DNA of 64,000 nucleotides, from assembly GCF_001921215.1 (NCBI RefSeq), contig NZ_MSIF01000017.1:62001-126000 (forward strand), in the 5' to 3' direction. Below are positions 2,719-58,430 of this stretch, one piece after another. Source of the stretch: Actinophytocola xinjiangensis. Its GTDB lineage: Bacteria > Actinomycetota > Actinomycetes > Mycobacteriales > Pseudonocardiaceae. The position numbers were made by a program, and so were the translations under genes. The notes under the pieces were generated by a model, which was given only the letters and a program-made list of their open reading frames with translations, was not told the origin of the DNA and made no database searches. Positions within the stretch are counted from its first letter, which is position 1. Every line of letters starts with the position of its first letter.

Positions 2719-3990
<1,272 letters not shown>

Positions 3991-5853: not shown

Positions 5854-6735
5854 ATGGCGGAGAAGCTGAGGCTGATGGCGGTGCACGCGCACCCGGACGA
5901 CGAGTCCAGCAAGGGCGCGGCGACCATGGCCAAGTACGTCGCGGAGGGCCACGAGGTCATGGTGGTCACCTGCACCGGGGGCGAGCGGGGGGACATCCTC
6001 AACCCCGCCATGGACCGGCCCGAGGTGGCCGAGAACATGAACGAGTTCCGGCGCAAGGAGATGGCCAGGGCCGCGGAGATCCTCGGGGTCTCGCACCGCT
6101 GGCTGGGCTTCGTCGACTCCGGGTTGCCCGAGGGTGACCCCAAGCCACCGCTGCCCGACGGCTGCTTCGCGCTGGTCCCGCTGGAGGAGTCGGTGCCCCC
6201 GCTGGTCCGGGCGATGCGTGAGTTCAAGCCGCACGTCGTGATCACCTACGACGAGAACGGCGGCTACCCGCACCCCGACCACATCCGCACCCACGAGATC
6301 TCGGTGCCCGCGTTCGACGCCGCCGGCGACCCGGAGCTCTACCCGGAGGCCGGCGAGCCGTGGACCCCGCTGAAGCTGTACTACTCGCACGGCTTCTCCC
6401 GGGCCAGGATGCAGGCCATGCACGACGCGCTGATCTCCCGGGGCATGGAGTCCCCGTACACCGAATGGCTGGAGAAGTGGGACACCACCCGGGGTGACGT
6501 CGACGGCCGCGTGACCACCAGGATCCGGTGTGGGGAATACTTCGAGAAGAGGGACGCCGCGCTGCTCGCCCACGCGACGCAGATCGACCCCAACAGCCGG
6601 TGGTTCGCCGTGCCGCTGGAAGTCCAGCGCGACGTGTGGCCGTACGAGGAGTACGAGCTGGTGCGGTCCCTCGTGGACACGACACTGCCGGAGGATGACC
6701 TGTTCTCGGGCATCAGCGAGAAGGTAAATGCATGA
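5854..6735 (+). CDS. mca: Mycothiol S-conjugate amidase
   Basis: 293-aa zinc amidase of the LmbE/PIG-L family. It cleaves mycothiol S-conjugates of toxins and antibiotics so that the mercapturic acid can be exported. Zinc ligands are seen in HAHPDDES (His, Asp) and YPHPDH (His). The long C-terminal part ([18 protein letters not shown]...) separates Mca from the shorter MshB, which is also in this window at 44.3-45.1 kb. The stop overlaps the next start (ATGA), so the downstream membrane protein is translationally coupled. A CCGGCAG hairpin (5796-5814) lies in the upstream region. Confidence 0.95.
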
Positions 6736-7076
6736 CATTGCTGGGCATTGACCAGGTGGCCCTCGGGGTGGACGCCACGTCGACCACCACGGTGGCTCTG
6801 GTCGCCCAGCCGCCGTCGGCGCCGAACGAGGAGGATCCCGGCGGGCGCGGCGAGGACTTCGGCAAGTCCTCACCGATCGGCCTGCTGGTGATCCTGCTGT
6901 TCTTCGTGGCGGTGGCCTTCCTGGTGCGGTCGATGACCAAGCACCTCAAGCGCCTGCCCAAGTCCTTCGACCCGCCCGACGAGACGATCGACGAGTCGCT
7001 CGACGGCCAGACCCCCGCCGAGGACGGCGAGGAGAAGAAGTCGGAGAACGGCGACCCGGCTTCGCGGAAGGGCTGA
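6732..7076 (+). CDS. Small membrane protein coupled to mca
   Basis: 114 aa. An N-terminal segment is followed by a Pro/Glu/Gly-rich stretch, one transmembrane helix ([17 protein letters not shown]), a basic stop-transfer patch ([14 protein letters not shown]) and an acidic disordered tail. Start ATG overlaps the mca stop by four bases. It corresponds in position to Rv1083 of M. tuberculosis; function unknown. In relatives the next operon gene is the DUF255 thioredoxin-fold gene, here displaced by an insertion. Confidence 0.8.
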
Positions 7077-7078
7077 CA

Positions 7079-7159
7079 ATGCCCAACCGGTTGACCGAGG
7101 CGACAAGCCCGTACCTACCTGCGCGAAGCGCACTCGCGTCTGCGTCGCTCATCGGCTAA
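7079..7159 (+). pseudogene. 5' remnant of the interrupted DUF255 gene
   Basis: Two bases after the preceding stop there is an ATG opening a 26-codon frame beginning MPNRLTEATSPYL. This is the family N-terminus of the DUF255 gene that now starts at 8211 ([12 protein letters not shown]). A tandem TACC duplication (7112-7119) shifts the frame; removing one TACC restores SPYLRE, as in family members. Homology ends near 7128. The fragment keeps the original operon spacing, so it is most simply the old gene start left behind when the Abi cassette inserted. Confidence 0.7.
7106..7123 (+). repeat. Left junction repeat of the Abi insertion
   Basis: AGCCCGTACC(TACC)TGCG. Without the TACC duplication it differs by one base from the 14-bp copy at 8235-8248 (AGTCCGTACCTGCG). 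Both copies fall at the same codons (SPYL) of the DUF255 reading frame. Confidence 0.55.
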
Positions 7160-7162
7160 GCT

Positions 7163-7221
7163 GGAGGCAATCGACCCCCTCCCAAGCCTCTCCGCGATGC
7201 TCAAATGGGAGGGGCCTTTTT
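7163..7221 (+). ncRNA. Hairpin/pseudoknot RNA preceding the Abi gene (abiF-like)
   Basis: CCCCTCCCA (7176-7184) pairs perfectly with TGGGAGGGG (7206-7214) and is followed by CCTTTTT, so it looks like a short terminated RNA. GAGGC (7164-7168) can also pair with GCCTC (7186-7190) in the hairpin loop, giving an H-type pseudoknot. TAAGCT at 7157-7162 is a possible -10, although a start 6-8 nt after it would exclude the GAGGC strand. Structured RNAs next to Abi_2-family genes are a known class (abiF motif). Membership here is inference. Confidence 0.5.
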
Positions 7222-7237
7222 CGTTCAGGGGTGTGCG

Positions 7238-8140
7238 GTGAAGCCGAGCCTGTCCTGGGACGAGCAGGTCGCGCTCCTGGTCAGACGTGGCCTGACTGTC
7301 CATGACGAACTCTCGTGCGCACGCTTCCTCGCGGCGGCCAACTACTATCGGTTCTCCGGTTATGCCCGCTACTTCCAGAGGGCCCCCCACCTCGGCGACG
7401 ATGGCTTCCGTCCGGGAACCACGTTCGACGAGGTCCGTGCCGTCTACGACGCCGACCAGGCGCTGCGAACCGATCTCCTCCGACCACTTTCGCAGGTCGA
7501 ACTCATGCTCCGCTCGCACACCGCCCGCGTCATCGCGGACGAGCACGGCGCGTACGGCCGGTACCTCGAGGAGGACTTCTACACCGACGTCGGCGACCGG
7601 GAGCCGACCGTTGAGTCGTGCCTGCGTGACATCGAACGCAGCCGGGACCGCCACATCCTCCGCTACAGGGGCGCCGGCGGCGACCGCGCGGACTTCAGTG
7701 AGCTACCGGTGTGGTCGGCCGTCGAGGCGTGGTCGTTCGGGACCCTGTCGAAGGCCATCGAGCGTGGAGGGCGGGGGACCCTGGCCTCCGCTGTCGCGGC
7801 AAGCGTCGGCGTCGCGGGGAAGGGGTTCGAGTACCGGGTGAAGGCGATCGTCTACCTCCGCAACCGCTGCGCCCACCACAGTCGCCTCTGGCATCACTCG
7901 GTCGTCGACGCCGGGCCCACGCCCAACAATGTCCGGGGCAGAGCCAAGAGGCTCGCGGGTCAGTTCAAGCCTCGGTCCGTGCTCGACGTCATCGCCTCGC
8001 TCGACGACATCGCGTCGCGCACCGGCGTCGCCGATCCGCTCCTCCCACGGCTCGTGGCACAGCATGGCCGTGGCTCCGAGTTCTGGAAGGGTCTGTCCGA
8101 TCCGCAGAGCCCCCGTGACCACGTCAGTGACACGTCGTAG
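7238..8140 (+). CDS. Abi_2-family HEPN protein (AbiF/AbiD type)
   Basis: 300 aa. The N-terminus KPSLSWDEQVALLVRRGL and the NYYRFSGYARYF block are the hallmarks of the abortive-infection Abi_2 family. The HEPN ribonuclease motif R-x4-H is present at residues 208-213 (YLRNRCAHHSRLW), and the helix VELMLRSHTARVI supports the fold. Members act in phage defence or as RNase toxins. GTG 7238 was chosen because AGGGG lies six nt upstream and homologs begin at KP-L-S-x-x-x-Q; an in-frame start at 7205 would lie inside the hairpin. A terminated hairpin RNA sits directly upstream, and the module interrupts the mca operon. Cleavage activity is inference. Confidence 0.85.
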   Translation: MKPSLSWDEQVALLVRRGLTVHDELSCARFLAAANYYRFSGYARYFQRAPHLGDDGFRPGTTFDEVRAVYDADQALRTDLLRPLSQVELMLRSHTARVIADEHGAYGRYLEEDFYTDVGDREPTVESCLRDIERSRDRHILRYRGAGGDRADFSELPVWSAVEAWSFGTLSKAIERGGRGTLASAVAASVGVAGKGFEYRVKAIVYLRNRCAHHSRLWHHSVVDAGPTPNNVRGRAKRLAGQFKPRSVLDVIASLDDIASRTGVADPLLPRLVAQHGRGSEFWKGLSDPQSPRDHVSDTS

Positions 8141-8210
8141 CGATCTACTGAAGCCCTCGTGCGCGTTCGCCGCGTCCTGCGTGTCGCAGGTCTGAGGCAG
8201 GATGGAAATC

Positions 8211-10211
8211 ATGAACCGACTCGTCCGGTCCACCAGTCCGTACCTGCGTCAACACGCGGGTAATCCAGTGGATTGGCAGGAGTGGGGCACCGAGGCGTTC
8301 GCCGAGGCCCGTCGCCGCGACGTGCCGATCCTGCTGTCCATCGGCTACGCGGCCTGTCACTGGTGCCACGTCATGGCGCACGAGTCGTTCGAGGACGACG
8401 AGGTGGCGGCCGTGATGAACGAGCACTTCGTCAACATCAAGGTCGACCGCGAGGAACGCCCCGACGTCGACGCGGTCTACATGACCGCCACCCAGGCGAT
8501 GACCGGCCACGGCGGCTGGCCGATGACCTGTTTCCTGACCCCCGACGGCGCCCCGTTCCACTGCGGCACCTACTACCCGCCGGCACCCCGGCACGGCCAG
8601 CCCTCCTTCCGTCAGCTGCTGGAGGCGGTCGACGAGGCGTGGTCGGACCGGGGGGCGGAGGTCCGCGAGGCCGGCGAGCGCGTCGTCGCCCAACTGGCCA
8701 GGCAGACCGAGGCCCTGCCGCCCTCGCCGGTGGACCCGGCGGCCCTGGACGGCGCGGCCGCCGCGATGCTGCCCGAGTACGACCGCCGCCACGGCGGTTT
8801 CGGCACCGCGCCGAAGTTCCCGCCGACGATGGTGCTGGAGTTCCTGCTGCGCCACCACGAGCGCACCGGCTCGGTCGAGGCGCTGTCCATCGCGGAGGGC
8901 ACGGCCGCCGCCATGGCCGCCGGCGGCCTCAACGACCAGCTCGACGGCGGCTTCGCCCGCTACAGCGTCGACGCCGGCTGGGTGGTGCCGCACTTCGAGA
9001 AAATGCTCTACGACAACGCCCTGCTGCTGCGCTTCTACGCCCACCTGGCGGTCCGCACGCGCTCGGACCGCTACCGCGAGGTCGCCACCGCGACCGCGCG
9101 GTTCCTGCTGGGCCGCCTGCGCACCGCCGACGGCGGTTTCGCCGCGTCGCTGGACGCCGACACCGACGGCGTCGAGGGCCTCACCTACGCCTGGACCCCG
9201 GCGCAGCTGGTCGAGGTCCTCGGCGAGGACGACGGCGCCTGGGCGGCGGACCTGCTCGGGGTGACGGCCGCCGGCACGTTCGAGCACGGCACGTCGACCC
9301 TGCGCCTGCTGCGCGAACCCGAGGTCCCGGCCCGCTGGGAGCGGGTGCGGGTGGCCCTGCTGGCCGCCCGCGACACCCGCCCCCAGCCCGCGCGCGACGA
9401 CAAGGTCGTGACCGCGTGGAACGGCCTGACGATCGGAGCCCTTGCACACGCCGGCACGCTGCTCGACGAGCCGTCGTGGGTGGCCGCGGCGGTCGCGGCG
9501 GCCACGCTGGTCGTCGACCGGCACCTGGTCGAGGGCCGACTGCGCCGCGCGTCCCGCGACGGCGTGGTCGGTGACGCGGCCGGCGTGCTGGAGGACTACG
9601 GCTGCCTGGCCGACGGCCTGCTCGCGCTGCACCAGGCCACCGCCGACCCCCACTGGCTGGACGTGGCGACCGGACTGCTGGACACGGCCCTGGCCCACTT
9701 CACCGACCAGGACGCCGACGGCGCCTTCCACGACACCGCCGACGACGCCGACGCGCTGGTCTGGCGCCCGTCCGACCCGGCCGACAACGCCAGCCCGTCC
9801 GGGGCGTCGGCGCTGGCCGGGGCGTTGCTGACGGCCTCGGCCCTGGTCGGCCCGGACCGCGCGGGCGACTACCGGGCGCGCGCCGAGTCGGCGGTGGCCA
9901 GGGCCGGGCTGCTGGCCGAGCGTGCCCCCCGTTTCGCCGGGCATTGGCTGTCGGTGGCCGAGGCCCTGGCCGCCGGTCCGGTCCAGGTCGCCGTCGTCGG
10001 CGCCGAGGACGACCGCCGCCGGGCCCTGGCCGAGGCCGCGCGGCGCACGGCGCCCGGCGGGGCCGTGGTCCTGGTCGGCGGCCCGGACGAGGCGCCGTTG
10101 CTGGCCGACCGTCCGCTGGTCGACGGCCTGCCGGCGGCGTACGTGTGCCACGGGTACGTGTGTGACCGCCCGGTCACCGAGGTCGCGGACCTGCTCACCG
10201 CACTCGCCTGA
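8211..10211 (+). CDS. DUF255 thioredoxin-fold / YyaL-like protein
   Basis: 666 aa. The N-terminal thioredoxin-like domain holds the CxxC-type motif [14 protein letters not shown], followed by [14 protein letters not shown] and [11 protein letters not shown]. The larger C-terminal part is the six-hairpin glycosidase-like domain ([21 protein letters not shown]). The family resembles human SPATA20; its substrate is not established. ATG 8211 fits the family start and has AGGATGG upstream; ATG 8202 is an alternative. In mycobacteria it follows mca and a small membrane gene (Rv1082-Rv1084); here an Abi cassette separates them and the first dozen codons look replaced. A CCTGCG hairpin lies at 8176-8190. 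Confidence 0.85.
8235..8248 (+). repeat. Right junction repeat of the Abi insertion
   Basis: AGTCCGTACCTGCG, the partner of 7106-7123, located in codons 9-13 of the intact DUF255 gene. Confidence 0.55.
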
Positions 10212-57069: not shown

Positions 57070-58430
57070 CCGCTGTCACCGCCGGTGTCCAGGGCGCGCC
57101 ACCGCACCTGGAACCGCGCCCCGCCCTCCGGCGACTCGACCACCCGCACCGAGCCACCGCGCCGGCGGACCACCTCGGCGACCAGCGCCAGCCCCAGCCC
57201 CGACCCGCCGGAGACCCGGGCGCGGTCGTCCTGCACCCGGTAGAACCGGTCGAACACCTTCTGCCGGTGCTCGGCGGCCACCCCGTGACCGTCGTCGTCG
57301 ACCACCAGCCACACCGAACGCGGGCGCGGCAGCACCGAGACCGTCACCAGCGCGCGGCCGTGCCGCACGGCGTTGCGCAGCAGGTTGTCCAGCACCAGGT
57401 CGACCTCGGCCGGCGCGGCCAGCACCCAGCACGGCGCGGGCGGCGTGCTCGCGTTGACCACCAGCCCGGTGTCGCCCAGGCGGGTCACCGCGTCCCGCGC
57501 CGCCTGGCACACGTCGACCGGTTGCGCCGCCGGGATCTCCCCGGCGTCCGAGCGGGCCAACGTCAACAGGCCCTCGACCAGCGTGGACAGGCGCTCGGAC
57601 TCGTGCACGACGTCGGTGAGCACCTCCTGGGCGAAGTCCGGGTCCGGGTTGGCGACCGCCACCTCGGCCTGCACCCGGATCGAGGCCACCGGCGAGCGCA
57701 GCTCGTGGGCGGCGTCGCCGGTGAACCGGCGCAGCCGGTCCGACGCCTCGTCGCGGCGGGCCAGCAGGCCGTTGAGCGCGGCCGCCAGCGAGCGCAGCTC
57801 GTCGTGCGCGCTGGGCAGCGGCAGCCGGTGACCGGCCGGCAGCCGGGACGCGGCGCTGCGCATCCGCTCCACCGGCCGCAGCGAGGACAGCACGGCGAAC
57901 CAGGTCGCCGTGCCGGTCGCCGCCGAACCGATCAGCGCCGCCACCAGCAGCCAGTCCAACGCCCGCTCCTGGGCGACGAAGTACCCGGTCAGCGAGGTGC
58001 CGACGACCACGAGCCGCTGCACCCCGCCGGGGCCGGTGACCACCGTGCCCACCCAGCGCAGCGGCGGTTCGGCCGAGCGCCGCAGCACCGGCGTGCCGGC
58101 CTTGAGCGTGCGGATCTCCTCGGCCTCCAGCGGCGGCGCCGGCAGCCCGTCGACCGGCGCGCCCGAGGTGTCGAGCACCCTGGCCCGCACGCCCAGTGCG
58201 TCGTCGGCGGGAGTTCGGCCTTCGCGGACGTCGGTCACGGCGGCGTCCAGGATGGCGTTGAGCTGCTCGTCGGCCGAGCTGACCAGCAGCGGGCCGATCA
58301 GCCGGCTGGTCTGCACGGCCAGCACCAGCAGGACCACCAGCGTCGCCGCGGTGGCGACCATGGTGATCCGGAACCGGAGCGTCCGGCGCAGCCACAGCAG
58401 CCCCACGAGCCGCCCGACGCCACCTTTCAA
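57066..58430 (-). CDS. Two-component sensor histidine kinase
   Basis: 454 aa. Two membrane helices (ITMVATAATLVVLLVLAVQ and LDWLLVAALIGSAATGTATWFA) bracket an extracytoplasmic sensor of about 140 residues; HAMP (VLSSLRPVERMRSAASRLPAG) follows, then the H box GDAAHELRSPVASI and the ATPase N, G1 and G2 boxes (LDNLLRNAVRHG, VDDDGHGV, GGSGLGLAL). TTG 58430 overlaps the response-regulator stop (TTGA), consistent with coupling; GTG 58406 is an alternative. Confidence 0.9.
   Translation of the reverse strand: MKGGVGRLVGLLWLRRTLRFRITMVATAATLVVLLVLAVQTSRLIGPLLVSSADEQLNAILDAAVTDVREGRTPADDALGVRARVLDTSGAPVDGLPAPPLEAEEIRTLKAGTPVLRRSAEPPLRWVGTVVTGPGGVQRLVVVGTSLTGYFVAQERALDWLLVAALIGSAATGTATWFAVLSSLRPVERMRSAASRLPAGHRLPLPSAHDELRSLAAALNGLLARRDEASDRLRRFTGDAAHELRSPVASIRVQAEVAVANPDPDFAQEVLTDVVHESERLSTLVEGLLTLARSDAGEIPAAQPVDVCQAARDAVTRLGDTGLVVNASTPPAPCWVLAAPAEVDLVLDNLLRNAVRHGRALVTVSVLPRPRSVWLVVDDDGHGVAAEHRQKVFDRFYRVQDDRARVSGGSGLGLALVAEVVRRRGGSVRVVESPEGGARFQVRWRALDTGGDSG

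Follow-up and report, generated by a model that had tools for sequence, protein, structure and literature searches.

An AbiF toxin gene with its abiF RNA in Actinophytocola xinjiangensis, and toxin-less abiF RNAs in phages as candidate counter-defence

Introduction

A hairpin RNA followed by a HEPN gene stands between housekeeping genes of Actinophytocola xinjiangensis, within a 64,000-nucleotide stretch of DNA (the window). The pair raises the question of whether it is an undescribed RNA-antitoxin system, as the original prediction held, or one of a known kind, and of what the same RNA is doing in phages where it occurs without the gene. The analysis considers in turn the two parts of the module, their characterised relatives, their distribution and acquisition, and the phage copies.

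The toxin gene

The gene at 7238-8140 (+ strand) has a GTG start and encodes a protein of 300 residues, which Pfam, PADLOC, a profile and a structure model predict to be an AbiF-type HEPN toxin. As had been proposed, this is an Abi_2 protein (PF07751, E 7e-33, over the cut-off) with an intact HEPN R-x4-H motif, RNRCAH at residues 208-213 (R208-x4-H213). The protein also matches AbiD in PADLOC (E 1e-41) and the PHROG 'abortive infection resistance protein', and it has no match in NCBIfam. GTG 7238 was taken as the start because the closest relatives start at that position; an in-frame ATG at 7205 falls within the hairpin.

When 51 homologues were combined into a profile, it found a single PDB sequence, PbAbiF (8vz6), with 295 of its 296 positions covered (E 4.5e-83). 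The same entry, 'PbAbiF dimer bound to ncRNA', is the sole PDB match of the AlphaFold2 model (pLDDT 94.1) at E<=0.001, with a TM score of 0.69. In the profile alignment R208 and H213 fall in the columns of PbAbiF R210 and H215 and of AbiFCd R202 and H207, residues on which the activity of those two proteins depends (PMC12373285).

The hairpin RNA

Upstream of the gene, on the same strand, lies a predicted antitoxin/attenuator RNA (7169-7221, with a presumed 5' end), recognised by its Rfam abiF match, fold and conservation. Its stem pairs 7176-7183 with 7207-7214, an inner helix pairs 7185-7187 with 7199-7201, and a T-run read from the sequence (7217-7221, +) begins two nucleotides past the stem. 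The hairpin and its T-run indeed stand, as described at the outset, between an in-frame stop (TAA, 7157-7159, read from the sequence) and the start at 7238. The covariance search suggested at that stage returns abiF (RF03085) at 7178-7213 (+) with 42.8 bits, above the gathering score of 37 (cmscan; E 1.7e-4 over 64 kb, 3.6e-6 when the local stretch alone is scanned). At gathering thresholds abiF is the sole Rfam family found in the window, and no second abiF match was found in the genome of 9.5 Mb.

Folding energy was rejected as proof of the hairpin. The segment 7169-7221 folds at -21.6 kcal/mol (z -2.73), which 2 of 200 shuffles equal; with 66 nt and looser ends z is -0.65 and 50 of 200 shuffles equal it, so that energy alone is unremarkable and the support for the hairpin is the family match together with conservation. 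A chance hairpin is not the explanation, since of the 14 closest homologues among the matches listed 13 have this RNA ahead of the gene. Simple promoter and terminator scans of the region gave no match (the terminator scan being limited to loops of 3-8 nt), and the promoter scan found no -35 consensus upstream. A -10 element, TAAGCT (7157-7162, +), is predicted from the alignment of 14 rows described below, in which its T, A and last T are invariant, and has no scanner match. Because the T-run begins two nucleotides past the stem, the hairpin of this lineage could be antitoxin and attenuator in one.

Relationship to characterised systems

On sequence grounds the module is a further member of the known AbiF-abiF RNA kind: an Abi_2/AbiF protein with R-x4-H has RF03085 just upstream on the same strand, the two are co-directional, and the pairing of RNA and HEPN toxin gene is conserved. 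Classical type III toxin-antitoxin systems (ToxIN) have tandem antitoxin repeats before the toxin, whereas here there is one abiF match and the fold is HEPN. Nor does the module show the features of CRISPR-Cas13, in which a single protein has two HEPN domains and the guide RNA has a variable segment; here there is one R-x4-H and an RNA that is nearly invariant over 14 loci. The module is very probably a horizontally acquired AbiF module of a type III-like toxin-antitoxin kind.

The idea of an RNA antitoxin with a HEPN partner was therefore right in kind but not new, AbiF and abiF RNA having been characterised in Clostridioides difficile and Prevotellaceae, and the claim of an undescribed system is not supported, given the Rfam match above the gathering score and the published AbiF and its abiF RNA (PMC12373285). 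As the available parts of these accounts have it, AbiFCd is neutralised in cis and in trans by an abiF-motif RNA, RCd22, and its toxicity requires R202 and H207, aligned with PbAbiF R210 and H215 (PMC12373285). Neutralisation of the toxic protein by direct RNA binding is described for both AbiFCd and PbAbiF (PMC12373285, PMC12737573), and PbAbiF with its RNA, AbiFr, is credited there to Zilberzwige-Tal 2025 (Cell). The same two sources support the suggested link to Cas13, whose proposed ancestor is AbiF (PMC12373285, PMC12737573).

AbiFCd/RCd22, of the C. difficile prophage phi027, shares with the window module the Abi_2 HEPN toxin, the upstream abiF-motif RNA, R-x4-H and the order of parts, but its RNA has two abiF motifs and a separate terminator, where the window module has one hairpin with its own T-run. 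The former sits in a prophage lysis module, the latter on an actinobacterial chromosome (PMC12373285, as far as its available text goes). PbAbiF-AbiFr (8vz6) is alike in fold, at the TM score given above, and in catalytic columns, and one RNA per monomer is expected in both; PbAbiF and the window protein are 22% identical in the structural alignment.

The toxin and RNA of the module presumably work as in AbiFCd and PbAbiF. By analogy with these relatives, a single promoter would yield mostly an RNA of ~50 nt ending at its own T-run, and read-through past the T-run would yield the toxin mRNA. The RNA would bind each half of an AbiF dimer and silence the R-x4-H RNase site. A phage that disturbs host transcription or RNA would cause the short RNA to drop first, and the freed AbiF would cut cellular single-stranded RNA, with the result that growth stops.

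An actinobacterial lineage

Homologous loci were collected with a profile of five sequences against genome contigs, the best 80 of a longer list being kept. Fourteen of these (L076-L089) match at 57-76% identity, and the other 66 at 39% or less. The 14 hosts are Curtobacterium, Gordonia (2), Mycobacterium, Dermabacter, Brevibacterium, Frigoribacterium, Microbacterium (2), an actinobacterial MAG, Acidipropionibacterium, Rothia, Glutamicibacter and Paenarthrobacter, that is, 11 named genera. The RNA is present in 13 of the 14, the exception (L088) being truncated; L089 has a broken abi gene and keeps the RNA. Further modules with RNA and gene occur in two genomes (G228, G453) and on a viral contig (L167), and no match to the lineage RNA was found on plasmids. 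No published account of this lineage was found in a search that lay mostly outside subscription journals.

The RNA was aligned in 14 rows, the window and 13 lineage loci. Invariant or nearly so are the T, A and last T of TAnnnT, AATCG, most of the stem and loop, and GGGGCC; the flanks cannot be aligned, whereas the RNA itself is near-invariant. The stem barely varies, and the one compensatory change, C-G to U-A in L089, is matched by 28 of 500 shuffles. At least four T follow the stem in 11 of 14 rows.

Outside the lineage, model R1 gives 18 matches in 79 loci, most of them ~100 nt or less upstream of an abi gene. T-runs also follow abiF-like stems in other phyla (L095, L136, L146, L153), and attenuation by the same hairpin is thus not peculiar to the actinobacterial lineage. 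Among the Actinobacteria genomes sampled, abiF RNA was found with Rfam in 5 of 396 (2 of the 5 over the cut-off) and RNA of the lineage pattern in 3 of 394. Two of the five RNA-bearing genomes (G310, G367) have no Abi_2 match, the RNA in G310 lying 163 nt from a contig end, so bacteria may also carry orphan abiF RNAs. The abiF-like RNA of G367 stands in a locus (L040) without a tRNA.

Insertion into the start of a DUF255 gene

Within 7079-8245 the 1.1-kb module interrupts a DUF255 gene at its beginning, so that 38 nt of the gene start lie ahead of the module and a second start lies behind it. The remnant of the native 5' end (7079-7116, +), cut off by the module, matches DUF255 starts from the same family at 87% (L010) and 89% (L029) over 38 nt. 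The DUF255 (Thioredox_DsbH) gene itself (8202-10211, +; PF03190, E 1.5e-76) has a non-native start at 8202 or 8211 and aligns with genes of the same genus from 8232 onward; it is a neighbour of the module and does not belong to it. In two relatives of the same genus (L009, L011) a small membrane gene, at 6732-7076 in the window, stands ~130 nt or less from DUF255 with no module between.

Against five same-genus starts the remnant matches at a mean of 30.4 of 38 nt, compared with 24.4 for the present start; with 22 other genomes there is little difference between them (25.8 and 25.4). Two matches to the DUF255-start pattern occur in 3 of 297 family genomes, namely the window genome (1.1 kb apart), G584 (4.2 Mb apart) and G612. 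An 8-bp direct repeat, CCGTACCT, has its left copy at 7109-7116 (+) and its right copy at 8238-8245; being so short it means little alone, and its support is the surrounding gene-start homology. The flanking-repeat score of the window, 12, is reached by 15 of 100 shuffles, and the claim of a duplication rests for this reason on the homology of the gene starts.

The GC content is 0.672 in the module against 0.718 in the window, and third-position GC is 0.857 in the abi gene and 0.949 and 0.952 in its neighbours. A search of 60 genomes from the same genus, family and order found no close donor, the best other match having 36% identity.

In the flanking-repeat test of 15 loci, L076 and L061 beat all 100 shuffles and L084 was borderline (1 of 100); the other 11 gave no signal, nor did L167 and L170. 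In L076 (3860-5000) and L061 (reverse strand) the module follows a YchF gene and is bracketed by imperfect repeats of ~32 and ~97 nt respectively, and in L089 a ychF-like end fragment (3820-3860) lies ahead of it. An empty site for L061 was set aside as not clean, the downstream flank mapping elsewhere in relatives. No recombinase was seen inside the short L076, L061 and L089 stretches.

Toxin-less abiF RNAs in phages

The exact lineage hairpin occurs on three IMG/VR contigs, one with the gene (L167) and two without (L166, L168). When the 53-nt RNA was compared by blastn with 50,697 phage records, 71 matched, from phages of Mycobacterium (68), Arthrobacter (2) and Vibrio (1). The toxin, compared by tblastn with the same records, matched 65, of which 7 are 'Bacteriophage sp.'; by organism tally, phages of Mycobacterium, Arthrobacter, Vibrio and Synechococcus are absent from these 65. 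At 21 named phage loci the Abi_2 HMM found no match within ~1-1.5 kb on each side. An antitoxin-like RNA is thus present at these 21 loci without a toxin gene in the flanks, and 1 of 81 IMG/VR loci has Abi_2.

The Rfam model was applied to 20 loci, L166 and those of 19 named phages. Seventeen score above gathering and two (L187, L188) fall below it, while L172, which has no abiF match at the Rfam limit used, gives 67.5 bits with model R1. The phage LittleE (L175) has 42 identical nt in common with a Gordonia module (L077), and L166 has 49 in common with a Mycobacterium module (L078).

According to the available text of PMC9964418, Rfam lists abiF for three phage genomes, and the cyanophage S-CREM1 has it too (51.6 bits). 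The S-CREM1 'abiF sRNA' resembles the copies described here, being a phage abiF RNA that ends 4 nt before tRNA-Gly; it is printed there as an sRNA, protein antitoxins are treated apart, and that text draws no link to AbiF. No published reading of orphan phage abiF RNAs as counter-defence was found, subscription journals lying mostly outside the search.

Scale and covariation in viral contigs

The core AAGCCTCTCN{2,8}GATGCTCAAA, which holds the A-U form of the inner helix, occurs in at least 120 IMG/VR stretches, of which 80 loci were kept and joined by L168 to give 81, each on a contig part of at most ~14.6 kb. Abi_2 (HMM, E 1e-5) is found in 1 of the 81, the full module L167. A closing stem of at least 5 pairs is formed in 55; the other 26 have no contiguous stem of that length, and some may be chance or coding matches. 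At least 600 nt of downstream sequence is available in 48 of the 55, one with Abi_2.

In a model-fitted alignment of 86 rows, 97.3% of cells pair and both sides change in 11 of 11 pairs, values that none of 500 shuffles reaches; slid controls pair at 28-56%. In the 11 named actinophages with L166 and L167, 100% of cells pair and both sides change in 7 cells (0 of 500 shuffles), the pairs so changed numbering 3, which 50 of 500 shuffles reach. The inner helix behaves as a two-by-two test of pairing in IMG/VR, with A-U at least 120, U-A at least 120, U-U 0 and A-A 1, the single A-A match showing no closing stem by eye.

The U-A form was analysed on 80 loci (L323-L402) of at least 120. None has an Abi_2 match, 62 have closed stems and 65 have a tRNA within 20 nt. 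These 80 fall in only 7 sequence clusters, and the U-A loci may therefore be largely one phage group; 51 of the 65 lie a few nucleotides before tRNA-Arg.

Association with tRNA arrays

A tRNA gene stands 15 nt or less away in 13 of the 21 named phage loci. The RNA ends 4-6 nt before it in Pomar16, Bromden, DyoEdafos, Aziz, Lolly9, Snenia, Estes, Kingsolomon, Chaser, Douge, S-SZBM1 and S-CREM1, and in Talia1610 the tRNA is 12 nt upstream of the RNA; in Redno2, Baka, Thibault, Minerva, DmpstrDiver, LittleE, VH-5 and S-SRM01 the tRNA is ~270 nt or more away, or unannotated in the stretch. Among the 81 A-U loci, 18 (10 of 50 clusters) have a tRNA within 20 nt, where 1,000 random placements give 1.9 on average and 6 at most, and the 55 stem-closed loci give 14 (7 of 32 clusters) against a random mean of 1.5 and maximum of 7. 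For the 62 closed-stem U-A loci the figure is 50, against a mean of 8.9 and a maximum of 19 in 500 placements.

Mycobacteriophage Pomar16 and the phages D29 and Tomathan are near-identical from tRNA-Trp to tRNA-Gln but for an insert of 42 columns, which is the hairpin. Thirteen records cover at least 80% of this array; in all of them but Pomar16 the match is broken into two segments and spans 463 nt versus 504.

Other RNAs may occupy such sites. In the tRNA-Gly/tRNA-Val slot where Aziz and Estes have abiF, Rey (L446, 294-355) has, by eye, a different hairpin-like sequence, and the slot is perhaps a site for exchangeable RNAs, maybe antitoxins of other systems. In LittleE and Thibault, matches resembling DUF3800-IV RNA (L175 2537-2618, L181 2882-2963; 42.9 bits against a gathering score of 60.7) stand close before tRNA-Tyr and are possibly another RNA of the tRNA region. 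In the window, ARAGORN reports a 97-nt tRNA-Pro(ggg) at 57224-57320 that is absent from Rfam at gathering and is possibly a false call.

A proposed counter-defence

The phage orphans are probably, by analogy, an RNA form of counter-defence, in which phages would use toxin-less abiF RNA to keep AbiF silent, with tRNA arrays as the site of expression and processing and with replacement tRNAs and antitoxin RNA forming composite counter-defence loci. There is direct precedent in pseudo-ToxI of phage phiTE, an RNA with which the phage imitates a type III antitoxin and defeats the toxin of ToxIN, which is the logic proposed here for the orphans. The phiTE case involves another toxin and RNA family and mutants with expanded repeats, whereas the orphans are single hairpins in natural phages, often within tRNA arrays (PMC3475682, available text). 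Possible hosts with the toxin are Mycobacterium sp. 1245111.1 (L078) and a Mycolicibacterium with the gene on a plasmid (L074, 31% identity to the window protein), and in one family of the same order Abi_2 is present in 37 of the 201 genomes searched.

The available literature proposes that phage tRNAs offset defences that cut tRNA (PMC10264068, PMC11555353), and Cas13a, a proposed descendant of AbiF, cleaves tRNA anticodons (PMC11042736, PMC12373285). An array that joins replacement tRNAs to an AbiF antitoxin is plausible on these grounds, and it would hint that AbiF targets tRNA or translation, a step that is conjecture.

Alternative explanations

Rather than silencing AbiF, the phage hairpins might serve to process or space tRNA arrays, or might be the decayed trace of an abi module since lost. 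This account is unlikely, though it has a good deal to draw on: the gap of 4-6 nt to the next tRNA is fixed in many phages, the 80 U-A loci are mostly the one group with tRNA-Arg, and 139 fetched loci, mostly Abi_2 loci, gave one loose U-A match (L112). However, the paired changes in stem and inner helix speak against decay, some copies lie away from tRNA genes (Omegavirus, VH-5, S-SRM01, L166), and L175 and L166 have 42 and 49 nt identical to bacterial modules.

It is improbable, too, that the bacterial module persists through selfish addiction or as a stabilising element and not for phage defence. It stands alone among housekeeping genes, and repeats flank two of its relatives, neither of which has a recombinase within; against this, the presence of the antitoxin RNA by itself in phages is understandable if AbiF acts in infection, and the two roles are compatible.

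That the hairpin is a terminator acting only as a cis attenuator of the abi gene, with no action on the protein, would fit the T-runs in 11 of 14 rows and the similar ones in other phyla. It is nonetheless very doubtful: the loop letters, unneeded for termination, are as conserved as the stem, the AbiFCd RNA acts in trans (PMC12373285, available text), and viral copies keep stem and loop, yet a T-run of at least four T is present in just 8 of 55 stem-closed loci, L167 included. Finally, the proposed descent of Cas13 from AbiF (PMC12373285, PMC12737573) invites the view that the RNA is a guide and the pair a proto-Cas13 finding its targets by base pairing, which is scarcely credible for an RNA that has no variable segment and is near-invariant in 14 loci.

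Implications

As an AbiF module of the toxin-antitoxin kind, the locus brings AbiF, the proposed ancestor of Cas13, to a lineage of 11 named actinobacterial genera. If the counter-defence reading of the phage RNAs is true, abiF RNA would be two-sided, an antitoxin beside AbiF in bacteria and, alone in phages, a widespread counter-defence. An antitoxin RNA within tRNA arrays would independently support the view that the arrays themselves serve counter-defence, and Pomar16, with the hairpin, and D29, without it, form a natural pair that makes this view directly testable.
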